Source of the DNA: Arcticibacter tournemirensis
Lineage (GTDB): Bacteria > Bacteroidota > Bacteroidia > Sphingobacteriales > Sphingobacteriaceae
DNA: 64,000 bases
NCBI RefSeq assembly: GCF_006716645.1
Contig: NZ_VFPL01000001.1
Span: 744,001 to 808,000, forward strand
Reading direction: 5' to 3'
Shown here: positions 21,324 to 56,657 of the stretch, one piece after another
Position numbering within the stretch: position 1 is the stretch's first letter
How the letters are laid out: each line of letters starts with the position of its first letter
Made by a program: the position numbers and the translations under genes
The notes under the pieces: generated by a model
Told to the model about the DNA's origin: nothing
Databases searched by the model: none
What the model saw: the letters and a program-made list of their open reading frames with translations, nothing else

Positions 21324-21341
21324 CGGGAACGATTGCGTAAA
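21324..21341 (+). promoter_or_regulatory. LacI-type operator, site A
   Basis: CGGGAACGATTGCGTAAA matches the 18-base consensus CGGRAACGATTGCRYAAA found five times in this window. It lies 165 bases from the lacI start and 266 from the PL1 start. A further CGATTGCG is 12 bases upstream at 21318. Confidence 0.7.
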
Positions 21342-21558
21342 AATATATTCCGTTCTTCTAAAAGATTGTTAGTAAAGTGATTAATATTGTTTTGTCTGAA
21401 GTTATAAACCAGAATAAAAGTTATAAATCAAGTATACCAGCCTTCAATCTCTGATGATTGTGAATATTAGAATGAAGTAGCCAAAACGCAGCAACCTGGT
21501 ACAACTAACGATAATATCAAAGTTTATATCAAGAGTAATACAAACATATAAAAAGGGC

Positions 21559-21572
21559 ACACGTAAACGTGT
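21559..21572. promoter_or_regulatory. Inverted repeat ACACGT-AA-ACGTGT upstream of PL1
   Basis: Perfect 6-base arms separated by two A residues, 36 bases before the PL1 start codon. This is the size and symmetry of a dimeric regulator site. The binding protein is not identifiable. Confidence 0.4.
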
Positions 21573-21607
21573 TTAAAGAGAAGAATGGAATATTGAAAGG
21601 GTAATTT

Positions 21608-22933
21608 ATGACTTTTAGAACGATATTATGTATAGGTCTGATTTCTGGGTTTGCAAGCTTTGCTTTTGCACAGCAGCTTGCATTTCCCGGAGCGGAAGGC
21701 TTTGGTAAATTTACAACCGGTGGCAGAGGGGGAAAAGTATTGATCGTGAGTAATCTGAACGATGAGGGAGAGGGTAGTTTAAGAAAGGCTATTCAAGCAA
21801 AGGGACCCAGGATCATTGTTTTTTCAGTCTCCGGAACGATTGCTCTTGAATCTCCTCTCGACATAAACAAAGGAGACCTAACCATTGCTGGCCAGTCCGC
21901 ACCGGGTGACGGGATCTGTATTAAAAATTATCCTGTTAGCATCAAATCAGATAATGTAATAATCCGCTATATCAGGTTCCGGATGGGAGATGAAAAAAAG
22001 ATCGCTGCGGATGCATTAGGTGCAAATAAAGGAAACAATAACATCATCGTTGATCATTGTTCCATGAGCTGGGCGACTGACGAATGTGCTTCATTTTACC
22101 GGAATAGCAATTTTACTCTTCAATGGTGTATTATATCCGAGAGCCTGAACTCATCGGTGCACCAAAAAGGCGAACATGGCTACGGCGGTATATGGGGGGG
22201 CGAAGGAGCTTCCTTTCATCATAACCTCATTGCCAGTCACAAAAGCCGGACACCACGTTTCAGCGGATCATCCACAACGCCAAATTCGGAAAATGAGCTG
22301 GTCGACTTTACAAATAACGTCATCTATAACTGGGAGGCGAACAGTGTATATGGAGGCGAAAAAGGCCGGTATAACATAGTTAATAATTACTTTAAGCCGG
22401 GGCCTGCAACCGCGTCGTCAAAGAGGACCCAGATCCTGAATCCATGGTCGCCCTACGGGCGGTTTTATTTAAACGGGAACCATCTTGACGGTAACAAAGC
22501 CATATCGAAGGATAACTGGGGGGGCGTTAAAGCCGATCATCCAGATTCAGCGAGGACTTTAAATCCCTTCAAAGTAGAATCCCTGGCGTGCCAGAATCCA
22601 GAGAAAGCTTATACAGCAGTATTAGATTTTGCGGGTGCCAGCTTCCGGCGGGATGCAATAGATACGCGGATTGCAAATGAAGTAAAGAGCGGCAGTTCGG
22701 GACTGGGTACACAAAAAAACGGGATTATCGACTCGCAGAACGACGCGGGCGGATGGCCTGAGCTGAAATCGCAGCCAGCTCCCACAGATACCGATAACGA
22801 TGGAATGCCTGATGCATGGGAAAAAAAGAACGGCTTAAATCCCTCAGATCCTCTCGACTCTTCTGCCTATACAATAGATAAGAATTACACGAACGTTGAA
22901 ATTTATCTTAATAACTTATTATCAATAAAATAG
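21608..22933 (+). CDS. Secreted pectate lyase, polysaccharide lyase family 1
   Basis: A 441-residue exported protein with a signal peptide ending about AFAQQ. The parallel beta-helix lyase begins LAFPGAEGFGKFTTGGRGG, typical of Bacteroidota PL1. Conserved elements are VDHCSMSWATDECAS, HGYGGIWGGEGASFHHN and HKSRTPRFSG, the last carrying the probable catalytic arginine. The C-terminal segment DTDNDGMPDAWEKKNGLNP is a calcium-binding thrombospondin-3-like repeat. It cleaves polygalacturonate by elimination. It starts a plus-strand operon with the two CE12 genes and CE8. A paralogue is at 42006-43505. Confidence 0.92.
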   Translation: MTFRTILCIGLISGFASFAFAQQLAFPGAEGFGKFTTGGRGGKVLIVSNLNDEGEGSLRKAIQAKGPRIIVFSVSGTIALESPLDINKGDLTIAGQSAPGDGICIKNYPVSIKSDNVIIRYIRFRMGDEKKIAADALGANKGNNNIIVDHCSMSWATDECASFYRNSNFTLQWCIISESLNSSVHQKGEHGYGGIWGGEGASFHHNLIASHKSRTPRFSGSSTTPNSENELVDFTNNVIYNWEANSVYGGEKGRYNIVNNYFKPGPATASSKRTQILNPWSPYGRFYLNGNHLDGNKAISKDNWGGVKADHPDSARTLNPFKVESLACQNPEKAYTAVLDFAGASFRRDAIDTRIANEVKSGSSGLGTQKNGIIDSQNDAGGWPELKSQPAPTDTDNDGMPDAWEKKNGLNPSDPLDSSAYTIDKNYTNVEIYLNNLLSIK

Positions 22934-22935
22934 AT

Positions 22936-23676
22936 ATGAAAAGGTATGTTTTTTTCTTTTTGTCTGCTTTGATTTTAATGTCGTTTGCTTTAATACAGAA
23001 TAAAAAGATAACCTTGTGGATGATTGGTGATTCTACAATGTCTGTGAAGCAACCAAAAGCCTTCCCGGAAACTGGATGGGGCATGCCCTTCTCAACTTTT
23101 TTCAATAAAAAGGTAACGGTAGATAACCGTGCTGTAAATGGCCGCAGTACGCTTTCATTTATAACTGAAAATCGTTGGAAAGCCGTATACGATAATTTAG
23201 AGGCAGGCGATTATGTGTTTATTGAGTTTGGGCACAACGATGAAAAGCTTAATAAGCCAGGTGTTGGCACCTCAATAGATCAGTATAAAGCCAATCTTGC
23301 AAAATTTATAGACGAAGCCAGATTAAAGAAGGCGATCCCTGTGTTACTAACTCCAATTGCGAGACGTAATTTTATCGAAGGGAAGCTTGTTGACACTCAT
23401 CTGGGATATCCTGATGCAATGAGAAAGGTTGCCGACAGCCTGAATGTGCCTTTAATCGACATGCAGAAGAAGACCGAAAAGCTGCTGACTTCTCTTGGCG
23501 AGGAAGGATCGATAAAACTGTTTAATCATGTGGCGCCAGGCAACGAAAATTACCCGGAGGGAAAAAAAGATGACACGCACCTCAGTCCCGAAGGAGCTAA
23601 GCAAATCGCCGGTCTTGCTGCAGAAGGAATGCGGGAATTGAAAATTGATCTGACGGGCTGTCTAAGAAAGAAGTAG
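22936..23676 (+). CDS. Rhamnogalacturonan acetylesterase, CE12 (SGNH hydrolase)
   Basis: A 246-residue exported esterase starting two bases after the PL1 stop. The N-terminal hydrophobic segment (residues about 4-20) is a signal peptide or anchor. SGNH blocks are visible: GDSTM (catalytic Ser), VNGRST, FGHNDE, and DDTHLSPEG with the catalytic Asp and His. By family it removes acetyl groups from rhamnogalacturonan, opening it to lyases. Tight coupling to PL1 supports cotranscription. The next gene is a second CE12 enzyme, distinct in sequence. Confidence 0.9.
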   Translation: MKRYVFFFLSALILMSFALIQNKKITLWMIGDSTMSVKQPKAFPETGWGMPFSTFFNKKVTVDNRAVNGRSTLSFITENRWKAVYDNLEAGDYVFIEFGHNDEKLNKPGVGTSIDQYKANLAKFIDEARLKKAIPVLLTPIARRNFIEGKLVDTHLGYPDAMRKVADSLNVPLIDMQKKTEKLLTSLGEEGSIKLFNHVAPGNENYPEGKKDDTHLSPEGAKQIAGLAAEGMRELKIDLTGCLRKK

Positions 23677-23715
23677 AACGTTAGGGATCTATTGTTTCAA
23701 TCTTAAAGAGCGGAT

Positions 23716-24507
23716 ATGGACAGGAATATGAAGGGGCTTCTTTGCCTCGTATGTTGCATTTTAATGTCTTTTGTTTATCTGAAAAAGGAGCCCGTTAAAG
23801 TGTACCTTATTGGCGACTCCACTGTTGCTGATTATTCGCTCGAACCAGACTATAAAACCAGGCGCTATCCCTTAACGGGATGGGGACAGGTTTTTCAACA
23901 GTTTCTGCGTCGTGATAATTTAGTTCATTTAAAAGGGATTATACATGCTGATAGTGCAGTTGTTGACGATAGGGCTAAAGGAGGGAGAAGTACCCGAACC
24001 TTTTTCGAAGAAGGACGATGGGCCGAGGTTTATAAACTGTTAAAGAAGAATGATGTTGTTATGATTCAGTTCGGACATAACGATGCCTCAGCAGAAAAGC
24101 CCGAGCGGTATGTGAACATCACCGGATACAAAGAATATCTGAGGCTTTTTATAAATCAATCCAGGAGTAAGAGAGCCTGGCCCGTGTTAATCACACCAGT
24201 GACAAGGAATTATCCCTGGAACGGAGGAAAACTGGGGAGTGCTCACGGTGACTATCCTCAGGCGATGGAAGATGTCGCTAAGGAGCTGCGTGTCCCTCTG
24301 ATTAATCTGACTAAGTTGTCGGCAGATTACTTTACAATGAAAGGCCAGGACTATGTTACCTCCAGGTATTTTATGAACCTGCCTGCAGGAGCGTACGAAG
24401 CTTATCCTGGCGGGCAAAAAGACAATACACATTTTCAGACTGAAGGTGCCACTGAAGTTGCACGTTTAGTCTTTCAGGGTTTGAAGAAACTGTCGGGTAA
24501 TAAATAA
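23716..24507 (+). CDS. Second rhamnogalacturonan acetylesterase, CE12
   Basis: A 263-residue SGNH esterase. The frame starts at 23716; Met5 (23728) also fits as start, directly before the signal peptide MKGLLCLVCCILMSF. Catalytic blocks are GDSTVAD, GGRSTRTF, FGHNDA and KDNTHFQTEG. It is a diverged paralogue of the preceding gene, with a longer insertion around PDYKTRRYPLTGWG. The pair probably differs in acetylation position or in substrate size. It lies 39 bases after the first CE12 gene and 6 bases before CE8, in one operon. Confidence 0.88.
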   Translation: MDRNMKGLLCLVCCILMSFVYLKKEPVKVYLIGDSTVADYSLEPDYKTRRYPLTGWGQVFQQFLRRDNLVHLKGIIHADSAVVDDRAKGGRSTRTFFEEGRWAEVYKLLKKNDVVMIQFGHNDASAEKPERYVNITGYKEYLRLFINQSRSKRAWPVLITPVTRNYPWNGGKLGSAHGDYPQAMEDVAKELRVPLINLTKLSADYFTMKGQDYVTSRYFMNLPAGAYEAYPGGQKDNTHFQTEGATEVARLVFQGLKKLSGNK

Positions 24508-24513
24508 AATACT

Positions 24514-25461
24514 ATGAAAAAGGTGTTTCTTACGCTTATCTCTTTTATTGCAAGCTTGTTTGTTGTCGCTCAGGAGAGACATTTCACTGTGGCTCAGGAC
24601 GGCAGCGGGAATTTTAAAACCGTTCAGGAAGCGATTAATGCTGTTCCCGACTTTCGTAAAGTGCAGACTGTCATCTTCATAAAGAATGGAGTATATAAGG
24701 AAAAACTGATCCTTGCTCCATCCAAGAAAATGGTGAAGCTGGTAGGAGAGAGCGTTGAAAAAACAATCCTCACCTATGATGATTATAACCAGAAGAAAAA
24801 TATTTTTGGAGAGGAGAAAGGAACGTCAGGTTCAGCGAGCTTCTATATTTATGGCGACGACTTCAGTGCCGAAAGCATCACTTTTGAGAATTCCTCGGGA
24901 CCAGTAGGCCAAGCGGTGGCGGTTTGGTCGGCAGGAGACAGGATGAAATTTAAGAACTGCAGGTTTTTAGGTTTTCAGGATACTCTTTATACCTATGGAT
25001 ATGGCAGCCGGCAATATTATACGGATTGCTATATTGAAGGCACTGTCGACTTTATATTTGGGTCGTCTACAGCAGTGTTTAATAACTGCGATATCTTTTG
25101 CAAGAAGCAAGGTTATGTAACCGCAGCTTCTACACCCGACTCTACAAAGTATGGATACGTGTTTCTGAACTGCCGGATCAAAGGGGATGCTCCTGAGAAT
25201 TCTTTCTATCTGGGACGCCCCTGGCGTCCTTATGCCAAAGTAGTTTTCATCAACTGCGAGCTGGGTAAGCATATAAAACCCGAAGGCTGGAATAACTGGG
25301 GTAAGGAGAGTAATGAAAAAACTGCATATTATGCAGAGTATAATAACAAGGGTGAAGGTTTTAAACCTAAACATAGGGTTAGCTGGTCTCATCAATTGAC
25401 TAAAGAAGGAGCCAGAGAATATACGATAGAGAAGATATTCCGGGGATGGAACCCGGAATAA
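24514..25461 (+). CDS. Pectin methylesterase, CE8
   Basis: A 315-residue secreted esterase with a signal peptide ending near VVAQE. It has the parallel beta-helix pattern starting FTVAQDGSGNFKTVQEAI. Family motifs are present: GQAVAV, FQDTLY with a catalytic Asp, GTVDFIFG with the nucleophile Asp, and LGRPWRPYA with the conserved Arg. It removes methyl esters from homogalacturonan and so prepares it for PL1 and GH28. It is the last gene of the lacI-adjacent operon, and a second CE8 lies at 28837-29859 on the minus strand. Confidence 0.93.
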   Translation: MKKVFLTLISFIASLFVVAQERHFTVAQDGSGNFKTVQEAINAVPDFRKVQTVIFIKNGVYKEKLILAPSKKMVKLVGESVEKTILTYDDYNQKKNIFGEEKGTSGSASFYIYGDDFSAESITFENSSGPVGQAVAVWSAGDRMKFKNCRFLGFQDTLYTYGYGSRQYYTDCYIEGTVDFIFGSSTAVFNNCDIFCKKQGYVTAASTPDSTKYGYVFLNCRIKGDAPENSFYLGRPWRPYAKVVFINCELGKHIKPEGWNNWGKESNEKTAYYAEYNNKGEGFKPKHRVSWSHQLTKEGAREYTIEKIFRGWNPE

Positions 25462-27170: not shown

Positions 27171-28814
27171 CTACTTCAGCGGTTCAACCCTGAACCAGTC
27201 ATAATCAGCCCAACCTGAGTCGTTAGTCTCCGTATCGCGAGACGCGAATAATCCAACCTTGGCGCCTATCCATTTCCCTGGCGTGGCTGTGAATACCGGT
27301 TCCGCGCTGATGAACGTTTTGCCGTCTGTACTATAGCTGAACTGGCATTTTGCTGCCGCTGTAACGGTCACCCGAAGGTATGCAGTGTTGCTTTTTAATT
27401 TAGTTACAGCAGTTTCTTTCTCGGTAGCACCCTTATCGGCTTTTTCGCATACCCCCTGAATAAGGTATAATCCGTCTTTTTTACTTCTTATGAAAAAGTC
27501 AGCATAGCTTAATCCCATGATCACGAGCCCTGTTTTTTCGTTCTCGAGCTTTGGATTAGGAGTAAACGTCACTTTTGCTGTTGCCATGAACTCATCTGCC
27601 GGGAACTTCTGTAGAAGAATGTTTGGTACGTCCCAAAGGTTTTTAGCCTCTTCCGGTATTTTGTGAGTGTAAAGCCTTAATACTCCTTTGGCAGGGTTGG
27701 TAAATGCCCATGTAGCCTGTGGGTTTGCCTGCCATTGCCATTGGAGGCCCAGGCTATGATCATTGAATTCATCGCTTTCGACAGGGGTGACAATAGGATA
27801 TGTTTTACCTACGTCGGGCTTTTTGTAAGTTAGTGCAGGTTCGCCTTTACCGTCGCCGTCTTTATCTACGCCGATCACGGGCCAGTCTTTCATCCACTTC
27901 ATCGGTTGAAGGTGCACTACGCGACCATAGGCTTCCTTATCCTGGAAATGCAGGAACCAGTCTTCACCTTTCTGTGTGTCAACCCATGCTCCCTGATGAG
28001 GGCCGTTTACGGGTGACTTTCCTTGATCCATCACCACTTTACGTTCATAAGGTCCATAAATGCTTTTAGACCGCAATACCAGTTGCCAGCCTGTTGGTAC
28101 CCCTCCGGCTGGAGCGAAGATGTAGTAATAGCCGTTTCTCTTATAAAATTTAGGACCTTCTATGGTTGGGTCGTTTTCGTGCCCGTCGTAAACGATAACA
28201 CCTTCGTCGAGTGTTTTGGTGCCTTCTGTATTCAATGTCTTTACAGCAAGCACGCTTTTTATTCCCGCCCGGCTTCCAGCGTAAGCGTAAACGAGATATA
28301 CTTTTCCGTCTTCGTCCCATAAAGGACAAGGATCAATGAGGCCTTTTCCGCTTTCTACTAATACCGGCTCAGACCAGGGCCCTTCGGCTTTTTTAGCTTT
28401 GGTGAGGTAAATGCCAAAGTCAGGGTCGGGGTAATAAATATAAAACTCATCGTTGTGATAGCGAATGGATGGCGCCCATACGCCATTGCCGTGCTGTGTT
28501 TTTTCGAAGTGTTCAAAAGGGGGCTGGCGTTTTAATGCGTGTGTCAGGATTGTCCAGTTCACAAGGTCTTTAGAATGAAGTACCGGCAGACCGGGGACGG
28601 CATCGAAGCTTGACGCTACCATGAAAAAGTCGTCGCCAACCCGAATAGCGTCAGGGTCGGAATAATCAGCATTTAGAATCGGATTTTTATAGTTTCCATT
28701 TCCAAGATCGGCAACCCACACTTTTGAAATATAATTTTTTTTGACTTCCTGCTGTTGTGCAAGCAAACTTGTAGAAATAGAAAGAAAAGAGATATAAATC
28801 GCCAGTCGTTTCAT
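27171..28814 (-). CDS. Secreted glycoside hydrolase family 43 with C-terminal beta-sandwich
   Basis: A 547-residue exported enzyme with a signal peptide ending at about SLLAQQ. The five-bladed propeller of GH43 starts at about residue 40 with NPILNADYSDPDAIRVGDDF, containing the catalytic base Asp. LIDPCPLWDEDGKVYLVYA has the second Asp and IEGPKFYKRNGYYYIFAP the general acid Glu. The last 200 residues form a concanavalin-like domain as in GH43 xylosidases and arabinofuranosidases. In this context it may remove arabinose or xylose side chains of pectin, but the specificity is not determined. It follows the second CE8 gene by 22 bases. Confidence 0.88.
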   Translation of the reverse strand: MKRLAIYISFLSISTSLLAQQQEVKKNYISKVWVADLGNGNYKNPILNADYSDPDAIRVGDDFFMVASSFDAVPGLPVLHSKDLVNWTILTHALKRQPPFEHFEKTQHGNGVWAPSIRYHNDEFYIYYPDPDFGIYLTKAKKAEGPWSEPVLVESGKGLIDPCPLWDEDGKVYLVYAYAGSRAGIKSVLAVKTLNTEGTKTLDEGVIVYDGHENDPTIEGPKFYKRNGYYYIFAPAGGVPTGWQLVLRSKSIYGPYERKVVMDQGKSPVNGPHQGAWVDTQKGEDWFLHFQDKEAYGRVVHLQPMKWMKDWPVIGVDKDGDGKGEPALTYKKPDVGKTYPIVTPVESDEFNDHSLGLQWQWQANPQATWAFTNPAKGVLRLYTHKIPEEAKNLWDVPNILLQKFPADEFMATAKVTFTPNPKLENEKTGLVIMGLSYADFFIRSKKDGLYLIQGVCEKADKGATEKETAVTKLKSNTAYLRVTVTAAAKCQFSYSTDGKTFISAEPVFTATPGKWIGAKVGLFASRDTETNDSGWADYDWFRVEPLK

Positions 28815-28836
28815 GCTTTATTCCGATTGATTGTAT

Positions 28837-29859
28837 TTATTTACCGGCTGCAGGCAGCCATTCTGTTTTTCCTGCAAAAATGTTTGCAAGCGTGTATTTT
28901 TTAATTTCTTTAGCGGAGAGGGTCTTAGCCCATTTCACGCGGCCGGTTGAAGTTGCTCCGTCGCCACGGCTCATATAGTCGCTGTAGGTGGCAGTCTTTT
29001 CATTTTCAGGATTGCGCCAGTTGTCCCATCCTTCGGGCCGGATATGACTGCCCATCTCCGTTCTGATAAAAACGGTTTTTGAGTAGGGGCGCCATGGACG
29101 GCCGAGAAAAACTTTTTGTGCTTCGGGTGCCGCAATGAGCTTGCAATCAAAGAACACATAGCCGAACTGCTGGTGGGGAGTGGTTGAAGCAGCGGTAATG
29201 TAGGAATTGCTTAAGCTTTTGATGATACAATTTTGAAATACCACGGTTGCTTCACCAAATATGAAGTCGGTAGTACCTTCGATATAGCAGTTGGTATAAT
29301 ACTGCCTGCTGTTTTCGGCGGCTGTGTACAAAGTGTCCTGATTTCCTTTGAGGTTGCAGTTTTTTATTATTGCGCGGTCGCCCTCTACATGTAATGCTAC
29401 TGCCTGCCCCACTCTGCCGGCCGTATTTTCTATCGTCAGGTTTTCGGCCGAGAAGTCGTTTCCCTCCACCAAAACAGTGTATGAAGTGTAAGTGCTGAAC
29501 TTATCTTTCCCATATGGATCTTTGCCGTTCGGGTAAGGCTTACCGGAGTAATCATTGTTTGTAATAATGGTATTCTCCTTGCTTTCGCCTACTAAAGAAA
29601 TCTTTGATTTCCATGATGGGATCACCAGCTTTTCGTTGTAAATGCCATTTTTAATGAATATCCTGACCTGTTGCTGAGAAAGATCACGAACTGCGTTTAC
29701 AGCCTCCCGGATCGTTTTAAAATCACCGCTTCCATCCTGTGCAACTGTGAAGGAGTCAGGATACTGCTGCGGCTGAGCTTTTGCTTCAGGCAACAAATAC
29801 ATAAGAAACAAAAAGACCAGAAATGATAAGGAATGTTTGGCCATTAATCTATAGTCCAT
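28837..29859 (-). CDS. Second pectin methylesterase, CE8
   Basis: A 340-residue paralogue of the 24514 gene, with signal peptide (start at Met1 or Met6, 29844). It begins FTVAQDGSGDFKTIREAV and keeps NQDTLYTA, GTTDFIFG and LGRPWRPYS. It carries a loop insertion around SGKPYPNGKDPYGKD that the other copy lacks. It is the first gene of a minus-strand operon with GH43. LacI-type operator B (29946-29963) is 87 bases upstream, in position to control it. Confidence 0.93.
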   Translation of the reverse strand: MDYRLMAKHSLSFLVFLFLMYLLPEAKAQPQQYPDSFTVAQDGSGDFKTIREAVNAVRDLSQQQVRIFIKNGIYNEKLVIPSWKSKISLVGESKENTIITNNDYSGKPYPNGKDPYGKDKFSTYTSYTVLVEGNDFSAENLTIENTAGRVGQAVALHVEGDRAIIKNCNLKGNQDTLYTAAENSRQYYTNCYIEGTTDFIFGEATVVFQNCIIKSLSNSYITAASTTPHQQFGYVFFDCKLIAAPEAQKVFLGRPWRPYSKTVFIRTEMGSHIRPEGWDNWRNPENEKTATYSDYMSRGDGATSTGRVKWAKTLSAKEIKKYTLANIFAGKTEWLPAAGK

Positions 29860-29945
29860 TCGTTAGTTTTTTAGTTTACAATGAGTAAGATCTATAACAA
29901 GATTAATAAGTTTATTCCGGTAAAGGAACTGATCTGTTGGAATTT

Positions 29946-29963
29946 TTTGTGCAATCGTTCCCG
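29946..29963 (-). promoter_or_regulatory. LacI-type operator, site B
   Basis: On the minus strand it reads CGGGAACGATTGCACAAA, identical over 18 bases to site C at 33022-33039. It lies 87 bases upstream of the CE8-GH43 operon start. Confidence 0.7.
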
Positions 29964-33021: not shown

Positions 33022-33039
33022 CGGGAACGATTGCACAAA
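33022..33039 (+). promoter_or_regulatory. LacI-type operator, site C
   Basis: CGGGAACGATTGCACAAA, identical to site B in the opposite orientation. It lies 146 bases upstream of the ECF sigma gene, placing the sigma/FecR/SusCD operon under possible LacI control. Confidence 0.7.
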
Positions 33040-33184
33040 TTGTTTTTTGCTTACTGTTGCATGTAATATATAATAAACGTAAAATTGTTATCAGAGAAGC
33101 TAACATGTTATAAACCTGAAGATAACCTGAATTTTCAAATGACTGATAGTTAAAACTTCTCTGTTACAGGGTAATCGTCTGTAT

Positions 33185-33784: not shown

Positions 33785-33854
33785 AAAAATACAATTTTTT
33801 TTAGTAGAAGTTTTCATTGCGGCTGTCTTAATAGAAAAGCAGGTAACCACCGTA

Positions 33855-41964: not shown

Positions 41965-41999
41965 ACAGAAGAGGGTGTATCAAATGCACCCTCTTCTGT
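41965..41999 (+). promoter_or_regulatory. Perfect hairpin immediately before the second PL1 start
   Basis: ACAGAAGAGGGTG (41965-41977) and CACCCTCTTCTGT (41987-41999) pair perfectly over 13 bases with a 9-base loop. It ends six bases before the ATG at 42006. Only two T residues follow, so it is a poor terminator and could instead affect translation or mRNA stability. Confidence 0.5.
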
Positions 42000-42005
42000 T
42001 CGATA

Positions 42006-45438: not shown

Positions 45439-45444
45439 AATTAT

Positions 45445-47364: not shown

Positions 47365-47375
47365 TAAATTACAAG

Positions 47376-49028
47376 ATGAAACAGAAAGTATTAAAGGTTC
47401 ATCCAGACGACAATGTTCTGGTAGCATTAACGGACCTGAATCCTGGTGAAGTTGTAAGTTACAAAGGAGAGGAATACCAAATTCAGGAAAAGATCCCTGC
47501 TAAACATAAGTTTGCGCAGGAATTCCTGGCGACCGGAGCTGAAGTAACAATGTACGGCGTACTCGTTGGGAAGGCTCAATCTGATATTCATCGGGGTGGC
47601 TTATTATCTACTGAAAATATAAAGCATGCGGCAAGTGGCTTTTCTATAGGTGAAAGAAGGACAGAATGGGATGCTCCTGACGTTAGTAAATGGCAGTCGA
47701 AAGTATTCTATGGATATCACCGGGCGGACGGGAGCGTAGGAACTGCAAATTACTGGCTTGTAGTACCGATGGTGTTTTGCGAAAACCGTAATCTGGAGGT
47801 TCTCGAGGAGGCCCTTGTTAACCAGTTGGGATATGGCCGAAATAAAACATATGCCAACCAGGCAAAGCAGCTCATTGAGCTTTATAAATCGGGGAAGGAC
47901 GTCGATTCTCTACTTAACATTCCTTTGGAAGAGATTAGTGTAACCCCTTCCTCAGAAAGGTTGTTTCCCAATGTAGATGGAATCAAGTTCCTTACACATT
48001 CGGGTGGTTGCGGAGGAACACGTCAGGATGCTATCGCTCTATGCGGGCTGCTGGCCGGATATATTACAAATGCCAACGTAGCTGGAGTAACTGTGTTAAG
48101 TCTCGGTTGTCAGAATGCCCAGGTAGAAATACTTGAAGAAGAAATAAAGAAGAGAGATCCTAATTTCAGCAAACCGCTTTATATCCTCGAACAACAGAAA
48201 ATAGGGACCGAGTCTGAACTCCTTTCGCGGGCTATTAAACTGACCTTCGCCGGTTTGGTGCAGGCTAATCAGTGCAAACGTGAACCGGCTCCTCTTAGTA
48301 AACTTTGCATCGGACTTGAATGCGGTGGTTCTGACGGCTTTTCGGGTATTTCTGCAAATCCGGCAATCGGGTATACATCTGATCTCCTTGTGGCATTAGG
48401 AGGCTCTGTGATATTGGCCGAGTTCCCTGAACTTTGCGGGGTAGAACAGAACCTCAGCGACCGTTGTGTTGATTATGAAAGTGCTGAACGCTTTTCTTTC
48501 CTTATGAAAACATACAATGAACGAGCTGAGGCTGTTGGCTCAGGCTTTGACATGAACCCTTCTCCCGGAAATATTAAGGACGGCCTTATAACAGATGCCA
48601 TTAAATCGGCAGGCGCAGCAAAGAAAGGTGGAACCTCTCCAGTTGCCGATGTTCTGGACTATCCCGAGAAAGTAAAAAGGCCGGGATTGAATCTTCTTTG
48701 CACGCCTGGCAATGATGTAGAATCTACTTCAGCAGAAGTCGCTTCAGGTGCGAATGTGGTTTTGTTTACCACAGGGCTTGGTACGCCTACGGGAAATCCG
48801 ATAGCGCCGGTTGTTAAGATATCCAGTAATACTGTTCTCTACAATAAGATGAACGATATTATTGACATTAACACAGGGACAGTAATTGAAGGCGAAGAAA
48901 CGATTGAGCAAGCTGGTGAAAGGATACTGGATTATGTTGTTCGTGTGGCGAGCGGAGAAATAGAAGTGAACGCAGTTCGACTTGGACAGGATGATTTTAT
49001 CCCCTGGAAACGGGGCGTTTCTTTATAA
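47376..49028 (+). CDS. uxaA: Altronate dehydratase family protein, copy 1
   Basis: A 550-residue enzyme of the UxaA/GarD family dehydrating D-altronate to 2-keto-3-deoxygluconate. The N-terminal SAF domain is at about residues 1-75, and the catalytic part starts at YGYHRADGSVGTANYWLVVP. Iron-binding and active-site regions are HSGGCGGTRQDA, LGLECGGSDGFSGISANPAIG and TPGNDVESTSAEVASG. It is about 50 residues longer than the second copy at 53101, with an extended middle part around KTYANQAKQLIELYKSG. The two copies may act on different aldonates or aldarates. Confidence 0.88.
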   Translation: MKQKVLKVHPDDNVLVALTDLNPGEVVSYKGEEYQIQEKIPAKHKFAQEFLATGAEVTMYGVLVGKAQSDIHRGGLLSTENIKHAASGFSIGERRTEWDAPDVSKWQSKVFYGYHRADGSVGTANYWLVVPMVFCENRNLEVLEEALVNQLGYGRNKTYANQAKQLIELYKSGKDVDSLLNIPLEEISVTPSSERLFPNVDGIKFLTHSGGCGGTRQDAIALCGLLAGYITNANVAGVTVLSLGCQNAQVEILEEEIKKRDPNFSKPLYILEQQKIGTESELLSRAIKLTFAGLVQANQCKREPAPLSKLCIGLECGGSDGFSGISANPAIGYTSDLLVALGGSVILAEFPELCGVEQNLSDRCVDYESAERFSFLMKTYNERAEAVGSGFDMNPSPGNIKDGLITDAIKSAGAAKKGGTSPVADVLDYPEKVKRPGLNLLCTPGNDVESTSAEVASGANVVLFTTGLGTPTGNPIAPVVKISSNTVLYNKMNDIIDINTGTVIEGEETIEQAGERILDYVVRVASGEIEVNAVRLGQDDFIPWKRGVSL

Positions 49029-49064
49029 TATAAACAATACAATAAATTAAAATAGACGAGGGAA

Positions 49065-50465
49065 ATGAAAAATTTCTTAGATGAAAACTTCTTATTAACT
49101 ACAAAAACCTCAGAGCGGCTTTATCATGAGTTTGCAAAGGATATGCCGATTATTGACTATCATAATCATTTAATTCCTGAGCAGATCGCTAACGACATCA
49201 ACTTTGAGAATCTGTCGCAGGTTTGGCTTTATGGCGATCATTACAAGTGGCGCGCCATGCGTGCGAACGGAGTAAATGAAGAATATATTACAGGTGGTAA
49301 AAGTGATTACGAAAAGTTTGAAAAGTGGGCGGAAACTGTTCCTTACACTCTGAGAAACCCTCTCTATCATTGGACGCACCTTGAGTTGAAACGTTATTTT
49401 GGTGTGAGCGAAATCCTTTCAGGAAGCACTGCAAGAAAGGTGTATGATGAATGTACCGCAAAGCTCCAGACTCCTGAGTATTCAGTCAGGGGACTTCTGC
49501 GCAAGATGAACGTTGAGGCGCTCTGCACAACGGACGATCCTATTGATTCTTTGGAATATCATCAGCAGATAGCAAAAGACGGATTTGAGATTCTGGTGCG
49601 GCCTGCCTTCAGACCTGACAAGGCAATGAACGCCGATGACATAGAAGGACTGAACGCCTATATCAATAAGCTGGAACAGGTTGCTGATGTGAGTATCTCT
49701 GACTTTGACGGTTATCTTTCTGCTTTGAAGAAACGACATGATTATTTCGCACAAAATGGATGTTGTGTTTCTGATCATGGCCTTGAGCAGATCTATGCAG
49801 AGGACTATACAGATCAGGAAATCCGTGCTATTTTCCAGAAAATAAGAAATAATCAAAAGATTGATTTTTCTGAGGTGCTTAAGTTTAAATCGGCTATGCT
49901 GGTTCATTTTGCCGTGTGGGATCACGAAAAGGGATGGGTACAACAGTTCCATTTAGGCGCTTTACGCAATAATAACACCCGTATGCTGAGTCAGCTTGGC
50001 CCTGATACCGGCTGGGACTCCATTGGCGATTTTAGTCAGGGACGCCAGTTGTCTAAGTTTCTTAACCGCCTCGATACGGAAGATAAACTTGCTAAGACAA
50101 TCATTTACAATCTTAATCCGGCCGACAACGAGTTGATGGCCACTATGATCGGTAACTTTAATGACGGGTCAGTAGCCGGGAAAGTTCAATGGGGTTCAGG
50201 CTGGTGGTTCCTAGATCAGAAGGACGGAATGATCAGGCAGATGAACGCCCTTTCAAACATGGGACTGATCAGTCGCTTTGTGGGAATGCTTACCGATTCA
50301 AGAAGTTTTCTTTCGTATCCGCGTCATGAATACTTCAGGCGAATTATGTGTAATTTATTTGGTGAGGAAGTCGAAAATGGCGAGTTGCCTAATGATATTG
50401 AATGGATAGGTAAGGTGGTGAAGGATATTTGTTATAATAATGCTAAAAACTATTTTAACTGGTGA
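49065..50465 (+). CDS. uxaC: Glucuronate/galacturonate isomerase
   Basis: A 466-residue metal-dependent isomerase converting D-galacturonate to tagaturonate. The N-terminal metal site PIIDYHNHLIPEQIAND is at about residues 29-45. Other conserved parts are TDDPIDSLEYHQQI, RPAFRPDKAMN, QFHLGALRNNNTRM and GWWFLDQKDGM. Length and sequence are typical. It lies 36 bases after uxaA copy 1, and its stop overlaps the GTG start of the kinase gene by four bases, so expression is coupled. Confidence 0.95.
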   Translation: MKNFLDENFLLTTKTSERLYHEFAKDMPIIDYHNHLIPEQIANDINFENLSQVWLYGDHYKWRAMRANGVNEEYITGGKSDYEKFEKWAETVPYTLRNPLYHWTHLELKRYFGVSEILSGSTARKVYDECTAKLQTPEYSVRGLLRKMNVEALCTTDDPIDSLEYHQQIAKDGFEILVRPAFRPDKAMNADDIEGLNAYINKLEQVADVSISDFDGYLSALKKRHDYFAQNGCCVSDHGLEQIYAEDYTDQEIRAIFQKIRNNQKIDFSEVLKFKSAMLVHFAVWDHEKGWVQQFHLGALRNNNTRMLSQLGPDTGWDSIGDFSQGRQLSKFLNRLDTEDKLAKTIIYNLNPADNELMATMIGNFNDGSVAGKVQWGSGWWFLDQKDGMIRQMNALSNMGLISRFVGMLTDSRSFLSYPRHEYFRRIMCNLFGEEVENGELPNDIEWIGKVVKDICYNNAKNYFNW

Positions 50466-51478
50466 TAAGTAAAGTTTTGTGCTTTGGCGAACTACTCTTA
50501 CGTATTTCGCCGGCTGCAAATGAAGAAGCGGAGAAGCACCCCTTCCAGTTATATATGGGAGGCGCAGAGGCGAATACCGCCACTGCGCTTGCTGCCTGGA
50601 ATATACCCGTAAAGTACTGTACGGTACTGCCCGACAACTTTATGTCGAAGTATGTGATCAATTACCTTGAGTATAAAGGTATTTATACTTCATCCATCAT
50701 GTTTGGAGGAAACAGGGTAGGTGTTTATTATCTCGACAGGGGTGCCGATCTGAAAAGCAGTGTTGTATACGACAGGGATCACTCTGCTTTTTCGGAACTT
50801 AAGCGCGGAATGATAGACTGGGATAAGGTGTTGAGAGATGTATCCTGGTTTAACTTTACCGCTATTAGTCCCGCATTAAATGAGACTGTAGCTGATGTGT
50901 GCCTCGAGGCCCTTGAAGCCGCATCTTCAAAAAATATAACGATCTCTGTGGACCTGAATTATCGTGCCCGCTTGTGGAAATATGGGAAAAAACCCGTTGA
51001 GGTGATGCCGGCGCTGGTTGAACATTGTGATGTGGTGATGGGGAATATCTGGTCTGCCAATGCTTTGCTTGGTACTTCTATTGATCCTGATATACATCTG
51101 AAAGGCACCCGTGAAGACTATCTGGATCATGCAAGGGCAACTTCGCTTGAGATCATGGATCGTTTCCCTAAATGTAAGTCGGTAGCCAATACATTTCGCT
51201 TTGATTCGGATAAGAACAATCTGCTGTATTATACCAGTGTATATACAGGTGGGGAACAGTTCAATTCCGATGAATTCAGGACAACAGGCGTTGTTGACCG
51301 CTCTGGCAGCGGTGATTGCTTTATGGCCGGGTTGATCTATGGGTCTTACTTAAAACATAGCCCTCAGGATACTGTTGATTACGCTACAGCGGCAGCATTT
51401 GGTAAACTGCAGGAGCAGGGCGATGCGACTGGTCAGGATATTCTTACTGTATCAAAGATTCAGGGAAACGGCAAGTAG
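50462..51478 (+). CDS. PfkB-family sugar kinase, KdgK-like
   Basis: A 338-residue ribokinase-fold kinase probably phosphorylating 2-keto-3-deoxygluconate. The start is a GTG overlapping the uxaC stop. LCFGELLLRISP, MGGAEANTATALAAW, VDLNYRARLWKYG and DRSGSGDCFMAGLIYG are visible; the last contains the catalytic Asp, with Ser replacing Ala in the usual GAGD. The second kinase at 55309 is a paralogue. Which of them serves the main flux cannot be told; this one is tied to the uxa operon. Confidence 0.85.
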   Translation: MISKVLCFGELLLRISPAANEEAEKHPFQLYMGGAEANTATALAAWNIPVKYCTVLPDNFMSKYVINYLEYKGIYTSSIMFGGNRVGVYYLDRGADLKSSVVYDRDHSAFSELKRGMIDWDKVLRDVSWFNFTAISPALNETVADVCLEALEAASSKNITISVDLNYRARLWKYGKKPVEVMPALVEHCDVVMGNIWSANALLGTSIDPDIHLKGTREDYLDHARATSLEIMDRFPKCKSVANTFRFDSDKNNLLYYTSVYTGGEQFNSDEFRTTGVVDRSGSGDCFMAGLIYGSYLKHSPQDTVDYATAAAFGKLQEQGDATGQDILTVSKIQGNGK

Positions 51479-51600
51479 GATTCACGATTTTATATACGAT
51501 TTAAGGCGCAGTGTAGGGTAGTAAGAATATTGGACCGCTTAGGTTGTATGGAATGTTAGAAAAATAAATAAAAACTGTCTCTATAACAATTACTGTTAAA

Positions 51601-51635
51601 AGCTGATTGCCAGTAGCTGACAGCTAATAGCTTAG
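51601..51635. repeat. Five phased 7-base units before uxaB
   Basis: AGCTGAT, TGCCAGT, AGCTGAC, AGCTAAT and AGCTTAG follow each other without gaps and end six bases before the uxaB ATG. A two-unit relative (GCTGATA-GCTGATT) is at 33007-33020. Confidence 0.6.
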
Positions 51636-51640
51636 AAAAT

Positions 51641-53086
51641 ATGCAATTAAGTAAAAAAACGTTTCAGGGATACAGGGAGTATCCTGAAAAAGTACTTCAG
51701 TTTGGAGAAGGAAACTTCCTTCGTTGTTTTGTAGACTGGATGTTTCACGAGCTGAATAAAAAGGCTGATTTTAATGGTTCTGTGGTTGCTGTACAGCCGA
51801 TTGATAAAGGAATGGTCAATTTGCTGAACGAGCAGGACGGCCTTTATACGCTTTATCTGAGAGGATTAAAAGATGGAAAGCCCGAGAGCACTCATGAAAC
51901 GATTGATGTAATCAGCCGTGGAATAAACCCTTATGAGGACTTCAGCGGTTATCTTCAGACTGCTGAAAACCCTGATATGCGTTACATTATTTCGAATACG
52001 ACAGAAGCGGGGATCGCGTATGATGAGAACGACGTACCTACAGCAACTCCACCGAATTCTTATCCCGCAAAGCTTACCGTTTGGTTGAACCACCGGTACA
52101 CTACTTTCGCCGGCGATCAGTCTAAAGGCGTTCATATTATCCCATGTGAGCTGATAGAGAAGAATGCCGATAACCTGAAAAGGATCATTCTACAGCTTGC
52201 CGCAAAATGGAATCTTGGCGAGGGCTTCGTCAACTGGTTAAATACAGCCTGTACGTTCAGTAATACCTTAGTGGACCGCATTGTTCCTGGTTATCCGAGA
52301 GAGCGGATTGCGGAGATTACCGAAGAGTTAGGTTATGAAGATAAACAGGTAGTTGAGGGTGAGCACTTCCACCTGTGGGTGATTGAGGCGCCTGAAGAAC
52401 TGCAAAAAGAGCTTCCTTTTCCTTCTATAGGCCTTGATGTGCTTTATGTTAAAGACGTTACTCCTTACAAGTCACGCAAGGTAAGGATCCTTAATGGTGC
52501 GCATACGGCTCTTGTGCCGGTAGCTTATCTGTACGGTATAGATACTGTTCGTGAGTCGGTAGAGCATCCGGTGGTAGGTAAATTTATCAAAGAGGCCATT
52601 TTTGATGAAATCATCCCAACGCTTGACCTACCAAAAGCCGAGCTTGAAAAATTTGCCGGTGAAGTGATTGAGCGCTTCAGCAATCCTTATATCAAGCATC
52701 TTTTAATGAGCATTGCTTTGAACTCATTTCCGAAGTTCGAAACGCGCGTGTTACCGTCTATTCTTGAGTATAAAAAGAGAACAGGAGGTATTCCTCAAAA
52801 GCTAGCTTTTTCGCTTGCTGCAACTATCGCATTCTATAAGGGTAAACGCGGAGAGGAAGCTATCGCCTTGAATGACGATGCCGCCGTTCTTGTTCAACTG
52901 AAAGGCGCATGGGCTAAATATGACGGCGACGATGAGTCTCTTGAAGATGTCGTAAGGGAAGTGCTGTCTTTTGAAAGGAACTGGAAAATGGACCTGAACA
53001 AGGTGGAAGGCCTTACTGAAGCTGTTACTAAACATCTGATCAATATTGAGAAGAATGGTATGCAGAAAGCGATAGAGACCGTTTAG
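51641..53086 (+). CDS. uxaB: Tagaturonate reductase (altronate oxidoreductase)
   Basis: A 481-residue mannitol-dehydrogenase-family enzyme reducing tagaturonate to altronate. The N-terminal nucleotide-binding region is [20 protein letters not shown], followed by [11 protein letters not shown] and [15 protein letters not shown]. The catalytic region has [19 protein letters not shown], and [20 protein letters not shown] is also conserved. It is separated from the kinase by 162 bases with some 7-base repeats, so it may have its own promoter. The second uxaA follows after 14 bases. Confidence 0.93.
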
Positions 53087-53100
53087 GCTTTGAATTTAAG

Positions 53101-54591
53101 ATGAAAGAATTTATTAAGATACATTCACGGGATAACGTGGTGATTGCATTGAAGAATTTCAGTGCGGGCGATTTTATTGAAGTTGAAGGTAAGCGGATTG
53201 TTTTACTGAATGATGTGGAGCGGGGGCATAAAATCGCTACTGCAGATATTACTTCTGGCGAAGATGTGATTAAATATGGCTATCCCATTGGATATGCTAC
53301 AGCCGACATCAGGATGGGCGAGCACGTGCATGTACACAATGTAAGAACGAAGCTTCAGGATGTAAACGATTATTCCTATAATCCCCATTTGCACGGAGAG
53401 CTGCCTCATGCGAACCGCAACCTGACTTTCAACGGATACAGAAGGGCAAATGGAGATGTGGGTATCCGTAACGAAATATGGATAGTTCCTACGGTAGGAT
53501 GTGTGAATGGTATTGCCGAACAGATCATCCGTGAATTTAAAGCGGAAGAGAATCCAACGGACATAGAGGGAATAGAAGTATTTAAACATAGTTACGGTTG
53601 TTCGCAATTGGGCGATGATCATGTGAATACACGGCAAATCCTTGGGGATATAGCGCTGCATCCGAATGCAGGTGGCGTGCTTATTCTGGGCCTCGGATGT
53701 GAGAATAACAAGATTGACGAGTTCGAAGCCTCGTTAGGCGACTATGATAAAAGCCGCATCAAGTTCCTTTCAAGTCAGAGTACTTCAGATGAAGTAGAAG
53801 ACTCGAAGGCTCTTCTAAGAGAAATATATGAGGTGGTTCGTAAAGATAAGCGGGAACCTATTCCTGTATCAGAGCTGAGGGTAGGTTTGAAATGCGGAGG
53901 TTCTGATGGACTTTCGGGGATTACAGCAAATCCGCTTGTAGGATATTTCTCAGATTTTCTGATCAGCCAGGGCGGTACTACTATTCTTACTGAAGTGCCT
54001 GAAATGTTCGGTGCCGAGACAATCCTTATGGATCGCTGTGTCAATGAAGAGGTGTTCGAAAAAACGGTTCATCTGATCAACGATTTCAAGCAATATTTTA
54101 TCGATCTCAAACAGCCTATTTACGAGAACCCCTCTCCGGGTAACAAAGCCGGTGGTATAACCACCCTGGAGGATAAATCTCTTGGCTGTACACAGAAAGG
54201 TGGTATTGCAAATGTGGTAGACGTATTAAAATACGGTGAAAGGCTGAAGGCTAAAGGTTTGAACCTTTTGAGCGCCCCGGGCAATGATCTTGTAGCTACC
54301 ACAGCTCTCGGAGCGTCGGGATGTCATATTGTACTGTTCACAACAGGTCGCGGAACACCGTTCGGCAGCTTTATACCTACGCTGAAAATTGCGACTAACA
54401 ATGAACTTGCCACTAAAAAGCCTCATTGGATCGACTATAACGCAGGTCCTCTGGCTGAAGATAAGACCTTTGACGCTGCGTTAGAGGAATTTATTGATAA
54501 GATTGTGAGAGTGGCAAGCGGAGAGAAAGCGCACCATGAGAAAAATGGATTTCGCGAAATCGCCATTTTTAAAACAGGTGTTACCTTGTAA
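53101..54591 (+). CDS. uxaA: Altronate dehydratase, copy 2
   Basis: A 496-residue enzyme matching the normal UxaA length. The N-terminal SAF domain is followed by FNGYRRANGDVGIRNEIWIVPTVGC (shown here in parts), then YGCSQLGDDH, LKCGGSDGLSGITANPLVG, ENPSPGNKAGG and SAPGNDLVATTALGASG. The position right after uxaB and the close fit make this the better candidate for the main altronate dehydratase. Copy 1 at 47376 is a distant paralogue in the same locus. A terminator follows. Confidence 0.93.
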   Translation: MKEFIKIHSRDNVVIALKNFSAGDFIEVEGKRIVLLNDVERGHKIATADITSGEDVIKYGYPIGYATADIRMGEHVHVHNVRTKLQDVNDYSYNPHLHGELPHANRNLTFNGYRRANGDVGIRNEIWIVPTVGCVNGIAEQIIREFKAEENPTDIEGIEVFKHSYGCSQLGDDHVNTRQILGDIALHPNAGGVLILGLGCENNKIDEFEASLGDYDKSRIKFLSSQSTSDEVEDSKALLREIYEVVRKDKREPIPVSELRVGLKCGGSDGLSGITANPLVGYFSDFLISQGGTTILTEVPEMFGAETILMDRCVNEEVFEKTVHLINDFKQYFIDLKQPIYENPSPGNKAGGITTLEDKSLGCTQKGGIANVVDVLKYGERLKAKGLNLLSAPGNDLVATTALGASGCHIVLFTTGRGTPFGSFIPTLKIATNNELATKKPHWIDYNAGPLAEDKTFDAALEEFIDKIVRVASGEKAHHEKNGFREIAIFKTGVTL

Positions 54592-54722: not shown

Positions 54723-55169
54723 CTAGATTTTCACTTTAATAACCAGCTTTTTAATAACTCCTTCGCCGATCATTGGGGCATGTACATCTTCAGGAAAGAA
54801 GATAGCAAACTGACCGGGCTGTAGTTCGAAGTACATTCCTGGTTTGTCATTGTAAAAAATAACGTCCTTTTCCGGGTTATATGGAGCAACAGGATTCGTG
54901 CACACACTGCGGGTGCTCCATCCCATTTTTTCTTTTCCAGAGATACATACCTGGATGTCGATAAAGTTGTTGTGAGCTTCAAATTTAGCGTCTTCAACTT
55001 TCGCGCCTTCTTTCGCCGAAACAGCGGAGGTCAGCGATCCTTCTTCAATTACAGTTTTACCAACTTCGAGCGACTGTAAATCCTCGTTTTTGAGATATTC
55101 AAAAGCTTTAGCAAAGTGTTTGTGAACGCTCAGGTATTTGTCGGCGTTTTCTAAAGAATCTATAATCAT
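54723..55169 (-). CDS. YhcH/YjgK/YiaL (DUF386) cupin protein
   Basis: The frame begins at 55214, but the ATG at 55169 (MIIDSLENADKYL) matches the family start, giving 148 residues. Conserved parts are FEAHNNFIDIQVCISGKEKMGW and YNDKPGMYFELQPGQFAIFFPEDVHAP with metal-binding residues. The family is linked to sugar-acid metabolism (often sialic or uronic acids) and may act as an anomerase or isomerase; the exact reaction is not certain. It lies downstream of kdgK on the same strand, behind a hairpin. Confidence 0.88.
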   Translation of the reverse strand: MIIDSLENADKYLSVHKHFAKAFEYLKNEDLQSLEVGKTVIEEGSLTSAVSAKEGAKVEDAKFEAHNNFIDIQVCISGKEKMGWSTRSVCTNPVAPYNPEKDVIFYNDKPGMYFELQPGQFAIFFPEDVHAPMIGEGVIKKLVIKVKI

Positions 55170-55233
55170 TGTGTAGTTTTTAGACGTGAGTAATGAGATT
55201 TGAGAAATAATCAATTAGTTAAAGTAAAAATAA

Positions 55234-55272
55234 AAAATCCGCCAGGCACATCGAAGCGCGCAGGCGGATTTT
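55234..55272 (-). terminator. Hairpin after kdgK (minus strand)
   Basis: Perfect 10-base arms AAAATCCGCC (55234-55243) and GGCGGATTTT (55263-55272). On the minus strand the stem is followed by a T-run. It lies 37 bases beyond the kdgK stop, so yhcH may be expressed by read-through or from its own promoter. Confidence 0.75.
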
Positions 55273-55308
55273 CCTATAATTTATTACGATCCCGCATTGG
55301 GTAAGTAA

Positions 55309-56334
55309 TTATCTTTGAACTCTTCCGGAAGCATCACCTTTGATAAGGGTTTGAACTTCAGAAAGTGTAGCATGATTCAGGTCACCAGGAATAGTGTGTT
55401 TCAGTGCGGAAGCTCCAACACCAAATTCAGCAGCCTCGCCCATCGGCATACCGCTCACCAGACCGTAGATAAATCCACTTGCAAATGAGTCGCCACTACC
55501 TACACGGTCGACTATACGAACTTCATACTGTTTTGTATGATAGAATTCATTGCCGTCGTATACCAGTGCAGACCATCCATTGTCGGAAGCGCTATGGCTT
55601 TCACGCAAAGTAGAAGCAATGTATTTAAATCCAAACTTCTCTTTCATCTGCTGAAATACATCTTTATATCCCGCGAGGTTTAATTCACCTTTTGTAATAT
55701 CTGTTCCGGCGCTCTTGAATCCTAAAGTAGTTTCAGCATCTTCTTCGTTGCCGATACATACATCAACGTATTGGCAAAGTTTAGTCATTACTTCTCTTGC
55801 TTTCTCTTTGCTCCACAACTTTTTACGATAGTTAAGGTCGATACTGGTTGTAATGCCCTTTGCTTTAGCCGCTTTTAAGGCAGCCTCTGTAAGTGCAGCG
55901 GCTTTATCGCTTAGTGCAGGGGTGATTCCTGTAGTGTGGAACCAGTCGGCACCTTCGAAGATTTTATCAAAGTCAAATTCAGAAACGTCTACATCAGCGA
56001 TAGAAGCGTCGGCACGGTCGTAAATTACCTGAGACGCACGCATTGAAGCACCTGTTTCCAGAAAATAGATACCTAATCTTTTTCCACCTCTTGCAATATG
56101 TTGAGTATCTACGCCATATCTTCTGATATGGTTTATGGCAGCCTGGCCTAAGGCGTTATCAGGTACTTTGGTAACGAATACTCCGTTTAAGCCATAATTA
56201 GTTACCGCTACGGCAACATTTGCTTCACCGCCGCCATAAGTTACGTCAAAGCTGTCGCTCTGTACAAACCGCTCAAATCCGGGAGTTGATAAACGCATCA
56301 TAATTTCTCCCAGTGTTACAACTTTTTTAGACAT
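55309..56334 (-). CDS. kdgK: 2-dehydro-3-deoxygluconokinase
   Basis: A 341-residue PfkB-family kinase. TLGEIMMRLSTPG at the N-terminus, TYGGGEANVAVAV near residue 32, IDLNYRKKLWSKEKA and the catalytic DRVGSGDSFASGFIYG near the C-terminus are all intact. It makes 2-keto-3-deoxy-6-phosphogluconate, the substrate of the divergent kdgA gene. LacI-type operator E lies in the shared upstream region. A paralogue is at 50462-51478. Confidence 0.92.
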   Translation of the reverse strand: MSKKVVTLGEIMMRLSTPGFERFVQSDSFDVTYGGGEANVAVAVTNYGLNGVFVTKVPDNALGQAAINHIRRYGVDTQHIARGGKRLGIYFLETGASMRASQVIYDRADASIADVDVSEFDFDKIFEGADWFHTTGITPALSDKAAALTEAALKAAKAKGITTSIDLNYRKKLWSKEKAREVMTKLCQYVDVCIGNEEDAETTLGFKSAGTDITKGELNLAGYKDVFQQMKEKFGFKYIASTLRESHSASDNGWSALVYDGNEFYHTKQYEVRIVDRVGSGDSFASGFIYGLVSGMPMGEAAEFGVGASALKHTIPGDLNHATLSEVQTLIKGDASGRVQR

Positions 56335-56657
56335 CTTAAAATGATAATTTTTATATTTAAAAAGGTTTATTAATTATACTTTCAAAAGAGTTTTCCAAAA
56401 GTACGTTATAGTTGCGCGAAATGCAGGAACCCGTAATGGGATTTCGTAAAAAATTTGTGCAATCGTTTCCGGCTGAAACATTAGTTCACAATTAAAAAGA
56501 AAAATTAAGATTTTCTTAATAAAAAAGCCAGTTAGATGATAAAATGATAAAAATTAGCCGGGTTTTAATAAGTGATTCTCGTCATGAGCCGGTTGAAGTT
56601 ATCATAAATTTTATACATTAGCCTCATTATATTTCCGAAATTTTCACGAATCATAAT
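56335..56657. other. 323-base divergent promoter region between kdgK and kdgA
   Basis: It contains LacI-type operator E (56454-56471), a candidate kdgK -7 element (CAAAAGTA at 56396-56403, TACTTTTG on the minus strand) and a TATATTTC element about 30 bases before kdgA. No gene is visible. Confidence 0.6.
56454..56471 (-). promoter_or_regulatory. LacI-type operator, site E
   Basis: On the minus strand it reads CGGAAACGATTGCACAAA, one base different from sites B and C. It lies 120 bases from the kdgK start and 187 from the kdgA start. Confidence 0.7.

Follow-up and report, generated by a model that had tools for sequence, protein, structure and literature searches.

We analyzed a 64,000-nt stretch of the Arcticibacter tournemirensis genome (NZ_VFPL01000001.1, positions 744,001–808,000; hereafter the window, to which coordinates refer unless indicated otherwise), in which copies of an 18-bp motif, CGGRAACGATTGCRYAAA, precede genes for pectin use at five places, termed sites A–E (Table 1). 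We propose that these sites are operators of one LacI-family regulator, encoded at 20131–21159, which would act mainly as an activator of genes for pectin attack, import and uronate catabolism. Based on sequence comparison, we assign this reading a probability of roughly 0.6. An earlier note on this DNA had suggested that a single regulator links extracellular attack, import and catabolism. A predicted regulon of this kind is supported by the recurrence of the motif before the same classes of genes, by its co-occurrence with LacI across genomes, and by the LacI-type scaffold of the sites.

The earlier note counted five copies of the 18-mer. Sites A, B, C, and E are exact, while site D (CGATAACGATTGCGTAAA) differs by two mismatches. 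Sites B and C are, as described there, the same over 18 bases in opposite orientation. All five sites fall between identified genes, again in line with the note; site B overlaps only a TTG-start open reading frame (29892–30275), which is taken as spurious. An additional copy with three mismatches starts at 21312, 12 bp upstream of site A and overlapping it. At up to three mismatches the window contains six matches, compared with a mean of 0.46 in 100 dinucleotide shuffles, none of which reached six. Across the 5.66-Mb genome, all four exact matches fall inside the window. The genome scan that the note had proposed, performed with the pattern CGGNAACGWTTGCRYAAA at up to one mismatch, returned six matches, namely sites A–E and one within an RteC-family gene, and did not reveal many equally good matches at unrelated genes or inside coding regions. 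Allowing exactly two mismatches added five places outside A–E, three intragenic and two intergenic. At up to three mismatches the genome yields 32 matches, which barely exceeds the 25 obtained with a reversed-pattern control, so such weak matches mean little. A chance origin of the sites was rejected on the basis of the window shuffles, the genome-wide specificity, and the spacing to a downstream promoter-like box.

This box begins exactly 40 bp after the 18-mer at sites A–D, despite differing spacers, and one helical turn further at site E. At the background rate of the window, four of five boxes at exactly 40 bp would arise with a chance of ~1e-11. The same spacing recurs among 109 non-redundant sites, with TAnnnTTG beginning 40 bp past the 18-mer in 55 cases, at 41 bp in 13 more, and at 39 bp in another 3. 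Altogether, 71/109 sites carry a box at 39–41 bp, against 0.41 expected, and the share follows match quality (44/56 at no mismatch, 19/37 at one, and 8/16 at two). For kdgK-directed sites, the box lies at 50 bp in the window (site E) and at 49 bp at the counterpart in one congener. These data put the motif at a fixed distance upstream of the core promoter and in helical phase with it, as expected for a class-I activator site.

The sigma-A box of Flavobacterium psychrophilum has been described as TAnnTTTG at −12 to −5 (PMC9723704). Aligned to this box, the 18-mer would therefore span about −70 to −53, with its invariant CG near −63.5, an activator-type position. The operator-linked boxes share one deviation from TAnnTTTG: all but two of the 71 (69) have A or C as their fifth base. 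Such a deviation is expected if these promoters need help. In 419 operator-less upstream regions, the version with T at this position is enriched (101 sense, 43 antisense, 49 shuffled), whereas the other bases are not (A: 40, 42, 41; C: 16, 25, 21; G: 12, 22, 24, in the same order). We also considered the missing −33 element as proof of activation, which was rejected, as general upstream regions lack one too; this element is likewise reported as not identifiable in F. johnsoniae (PMC7366714). Ten to four bases before the TA of the box, the operator-linked promoters contain an A/T-rich run followed by C (38/71) and T (52/71).

The architecture of the motif is consistent with a LacI-type operator. 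Operators of the TVSR class are described as even palindromes with a central CG, G/C at ±6, and A/T at ±3 (PMC2978694). The CG center, which had been pointed out as typical of LacI-family sites, is part of a scaffold (G, A, CG, T, and C at −6, −3, center, +3, and +6) that is present at all of A–E. The same positions are invariant in 61 unique sites, which were themselves chosen by a pattern favoring these bases. The half-sites are not perfectly symmetric, with an inner GGNAA against an outer TTGC and one paired position of G against G. Conservation runs from −12 to +21 around the 18-mer. This region forms a dyad centered on the CG at the left end of the 18-mer, and a weaker one centered on the CG in AACGATT. 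We read the 18-mer as often being one arm of a longer dyad, in which two LacI-type cores would abut at 12 bp center to center. The left-arm hexamer AWCGTT is complete in 64/122 sites, compared with 0/122 at each of five shifted positions. Within the window it is complete at D, has five of six bases at A, two at C, and one each at B and E, and we therefore regard the left arm as optional. The dyad pattern matches exactly at D only and at two mismatches at A; as a genome search at up to three mismatches it proved too loose (33 matches against 34 in the control). Two-armed dyads like TCTATGCAATCGTTNCCGGNAACGATTGCATAGA are also seen at three loci, ~6 kb from lacI (L066, 4147–4180; L072, 3337–3370, with one arm AACG; L078, 3801–3834).

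To place the motif in a wider context, we compared genomes of the window's family, Sphingobacteriaceae (251 genomes, judged from named relatives). Across a set of 60 genomes, that of the window plus 59 relatives, GAACGATTGCRYAAA was matched 24 times, in 16 of the genomes, and the reversed pattern twice. Across the family, exact CGGNAACGWTTGCRYARA occurs in 97/251 genomes and the reversed pattern in three, while the LacI (E up to 1e-100) is present in 152. Both are found in 92 genomes, the motif only in 5, LacI only in 60, and neither in 94 (Fisher p 4e-21, ignoring shared ancestry). Among the matches listed, the 97 genomes are represented by 30 loci, one being the window's own. The motif-selected set of 50 loci, own-genome loci excluded, comprises 42 unique loci after removal of six repeats of the same places and two loci without the 18-mer (L111 and L126). 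A pectin or uronate gene adjoins 36 of these 42, including L207, which has only a susC-like gene, 601 bp off. The box is found at 39–41 bp in 22/36 of the pectin-linked sites and in none of the six others (L125, L131, L197, L200, L202, and L203). Six of the 42 sites lie inside crude reading frames (L112, L120, L127, L131, L200, and L203). At L202 (366–1403), an exact-type motif stands divergent to the fructose-1,6-bisphosphatase gene of a relative, possibly as a link to gluconeogenesis, or by chance.

The regulator gene itself is accompanied by the motif. Among the best 80 of 285 LacI relatives, 62 loci carry the motif at up to two mismatches within 700 bp upstream of lacI, of which only ~160 bp were available at L067. 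The reversed pattern occurs at none of the 80 loci under these settings and at two when three mismatches are allowed. The motif points away from lacI in 59 of the 62 cases. The recognition helix STST[V/I]SRA is present in all 80 loci, with the I variant in 10. A change in this helix was not supported as the cause of site loss, as the 18 loci without a site at up to two mismatches keep STST[V/I]SRA. Taken as a whole, the comparison across genomes supports one predicted, LacI-linked pectin regulon.

The distance before an off-consensus promoter, usually one fixed value, suggests that the regulator switches pectin genes on rather than blocking them. We hypothesize that a LacI dimer binds the CG-centered core GGNAACGWTTGC at about −63 from the transcription start and contacts RNA polymerase, possibly through the alpha C-terminal domain of the enzyme, next to the A/T-rich tail of the site. 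With this help, a −7 box of the form TAnn[A/C]TTG would be rescued despite its departure from TAnnTTTG, the version for which other upstream regions are enriched. The second, mirror-image core that abuts the first at many sites could provide room for a second dimer or another register. The effector is probably a uronate intermediate. A precedent is CcpA, a LacI-family protein whose sites upstream of −35 generally mediate activation, although exceptions exist (PMC3463425).

Import may be subject to an additional layer of control. An ECF (extracytoplasmic function) sigma factor, a FecR anti-sigma factor, and an STN-domain receptor are encoded side by side at 33185–38571 (Pfam), the components of a signaling relay. 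Site C precedes ecf-fecR, and in this genome susCD comes after ecf-fecR; control of susCD may therefore run through the ECF sigma factor. The susCD genes would then possibly respond to two signals, an intracellular one via LacI and one at the surface via the STN/FecR/ECF relay. In two congeners (L214 and L215) and in one genome of another genus (L217), the operator and a box at offset 40 stand directly before susC. Their SusC matches start at residue 127 of the window's SusC with 71–74% identity, in frames ~100 residues shorter, and these shorter proteins appear to lack the STN region. The operator–box unit of the window and of L213 precedes ecf-fecR, with a full-length susC after it. L212 shares these genes, ecf-fecR and full-length susC, but has no site at up to two mismatches before ecf. 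The operator–promoter unit thus seems to persist while the signaling relay of the transporter is gained or lost. We tentatively extend this picture, with a little less than even confidence, to a clade of Sphingobacteriaceae and Chitinophagaceae. There, pectin loci would depend on LacI as an obligate activator that binds a single 12-bp core, or two that abut, at about −63 and serves a specialized TAnn[A/C]TTG promoter. The operator–promoter unit would be a portable module, with a plain SusC and an ECF/FecR/STN-SusC relay as its exchanged outputs.

Several observations weigh against an activating LacI. The exact motif is absent from 60 of the 152 LacI-bearing genomes. No box at 39–41 bp is found at 38/109 sites. 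Sites at kdgK/kdgA are exceptions to the pattern, as the kdgA-directed sites of five relatives (L133, L185, L192, L193, and L198) have no box at this distance. Instead of being weak, the −7 box may be that of a particular sigma factor. In addition, position alone is no proof of activation: bound at −60.5, GalR inhibits gal P1 and activates P2, both by contact (PMC4693257). The same LacI could accordingly occupy the same sites and repress RNA polymerase by contact from about −63, in the manner of GalR at OE, until released by a uronate intermediate. The fixed spacing is compatible with either sign, and predictions for hemicellulase-type genes give LacI-family regulators an overwhelmingly repressive role, a statement made of predicted regulators in general (PMC10766802). 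We nevertheless consider contact repression unlikely, if deserving of serious attention: the linked boxes deviate from the enriched TAnnTTTG, which fits promoters in need of help, and site and box overlap at none of A–E.

It is also conceivable, at a distinctly lower level of likelihood, that a different regulator binds the motif and that the LacI gene is merely a frequent neighbor or target. The LacI genomes without the exact motif fit this explanation, as do the 5 of 97 motif genomes without LacI and the presence in the genome of other LacI-family genes, one preceded by a similar site. The tight co-occurrence of motif and LacI, the lacI-adjacent sites at most LacI loci, and the LacI-type scaffold argue against it. 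A sibling LacI is a more serious candidate than a regulator from an unrelated family, which is unlikely; because of L165 (Table 1), we give the sibling more weight and the proposed activator slightly less. Fixed orientation and spacing, an ECF gene within the cluster, and boxes unlike TAnnTTTG would also suit a bipartite promoter of an alternative sigma factor, such as the cluster's ECF, with no operator involved. This we hold to be very improbable, as 40 bp from 18-mer to box would be too long for one sigma factor, the 18-mer is built on a LacI-type scaffold and frequently comes with a mirror arm, and two congeners keep the motif before susC without an adjacent ecf-like match. Finally, the repeats could reflect chance or plain shared ancestry of promoter regions, given that related genomes share ancestry, for which the co-occurrence test makes no correction. 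The shuffles, the genome-wide specificity, and the fact that non-homologous genes of a single genome keep both the site and its spacing leave this scarcely credible.

The genes near the sites are broadly those named in the earlier note, except that the gene after site A, at 21608, has no Pfam pectate lyase match; it has a PelZ match in NCBIfam that is sub-threshold only. The names PelZ, KdgK, and aldolase derive from matches under curated cut-offs. The LacI protein carries the PF00356 helix-turn-helix and a PF00532/PF13377 sensor domain above Pfam cut-offs, which places it in the LacI family. NCBIfam names no LacI subgroup for it, every match being far below cut-offs, and a search of solved structures returned general LacI-family relatives only, with CcpA first. 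Its gene flanks site A, as had been noted, and the site sits between lacI and 21608 in the upstream region of lacI, a position suited to autoregulation. No site at up to three mismatches was found upstream of kduD-kduI (31273–32922).

Table 1. Sites, boxes, and genes in the window, and matches to CGGNAACGWTTGCRYAAA elsewhere in the same genome.
Feature	Position	Strand	Remarks
Site A	21324..21341	+	exact match to 18-mer CGGRAACGATTGCRYAAA
Site B	29946..29963	-	exact match to CGGRAACGATTGCRYAAA
Site C	33022..33039	+	exact match to CGGRAACGATTGCRYAAA
Site D	43582..43599	+	CGATAACGATTGCGTAAA, two mismatches to CGGRAACGATTGCRYAAA
Site E	56454..56471	-	exact match to CGGRAACGATTGCRYAAA
Left arm of site A	21312..21323	+	hexamer 5/6
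Left arm of site D	43570..43581	+	hexamer 6/6
Promoter-like box TAATATTG	21382..21389	+	40 bp after site A
Promoter-like box TAATCTTG	29898..29905	-	40 bp after site B
Promoter-like box TAAAATTG	33080..33087	+	40 bp after site C
Promoter-like box TAGAATTG	43640..43647	+	40 bp after site D
Promoter-like box TACTTTTG	56396..56403	-	50 bp after site E
LacI-family regulator, proposed binder of the sites	20131..21159	-	Pfam LacI and Peripla_BP; recognition helix STSTVSRA
PelZ-like lyase, two GDSL esterases, pectinesterase	21608..25461	+	Pfam; PelZ NCBIfam below cut-off
CE8 pectinesterase and GH43	27171..29859	-	Pfam
ECF sigma factor and FecR anti-sigma factor	33185..34952	+	Pfam
SusC with STN domain, SusD, DUF4957/DUF5123 protein, pectate lyase	35083..43505	+	Pfam
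GH28, GH88/105-type hydrolase, altronate dehydratase, UxaC, PfkB-type kinase, tagaturonate reductase UxaB, second altronate dehydratase	43759..54591	+	Pfam; UxaB above NCBIfam cut-off
KdgK-like kinase	55309..56334	-	Pfam PfkB; NCBIfam below cut-off
KDPG-type aldolase and MFS transporter, divergent from kdgK	56658..58788	+	Pfam
L005			2 mismatches; within NADH dehydrogenase subunit gene
L008			2 mismatches; within TetR-family gene (TetR regulator)
L166			2 mismatches; within HlyD-type gene
L165	426-3018 (own genome, C1 near 2163803)		2 mismatches; intergenic, before different LacI-family gene, beside FGGY kinase
L167			2 mismatches; intergenic, ~2.7 kb from LacI paralogue (41% identity)

A wider regulon in the same genome was considered but not supported, as the extra matches at up to two mismatches lie in unrelated genes (L005, L007, L008, and L166) or near other LacI-family genes (L165 and L167). 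At L165, a TAnnnTTG box follows its site by 35 bp. Sibling LacI proteins may have their operators at L165 and L167. A nearly symmetric site, GGAAACGATTCC, is found ~2.7 kb from a LacI paralogue (L209, 5820–5841; own genome, C2 near 274319), whose helix reads VSTVSR in place of TSTVSR.

We found no description of this motif or regulon in the open-licence literature searched. For Gramella flava, a pectin locus has been described by omics (PMC5306329), and PMC12125979 deals with xylan and an AraC-type XylR. The motif itself hints at how it acts, and it offers a candidate case of LacI-type activation in Bacteroidota. It may also be used for finding pectin genes in little-studied genera.

Among known operators, that of PurR is similar in the strong half-site, where CGTTTGCGT resembles CGWTTGCRY. 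The sites here depart from it in having GGNAA as the inner half-site and possibly a second core that abuts the first at 12 bp. In Bacteroides, KdgR (BT0487), UxaR (BT0824), and UxuR (BT1434) are predicted LacI regulators of uronate use, while control of two extracellular systems for pectin (rhamnogalacturonan) has been attributed to hybrid two-component regulators (HTCS) (PMC3878776, PMC4052901). By description, the regulator studied here resembles KdgR, UxaR, and UxuR in family, in its occurrence in Bacteroidota, and in its association with glucuronate and galacturonate genes. It differs in that one LacI-linked motif appears to cover attack, import, and catabolism, spanning extracellular and intracellular steps that are divided between HTCS and LacI regulators in the Bacteroides work. 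HTCS loci are described with direct repeats ~21 bp apart (PMC3878776); the motif here is a dyad. Like CcpA at ackA, pta, and ilvB, where activity depends on the helix face (PMC3463425), the regulator would be a LacI-family protein acting from sites upstream of the core promoter. Unlike CcpA, a global and mostly repressing Gram-positive regulator, it would serve a local pectin regulon, in which the linked sites examined share one spacing. The closest geometry is that of GalR at OE of gal (−60.5), a LacI-family dimer at a nearly equal distance that contacts RNA polymerase (PMC4693257), as we propose here. GalR differs in inhibiting one promoter and activating another, and an abutting second core is not among the features given for it there.

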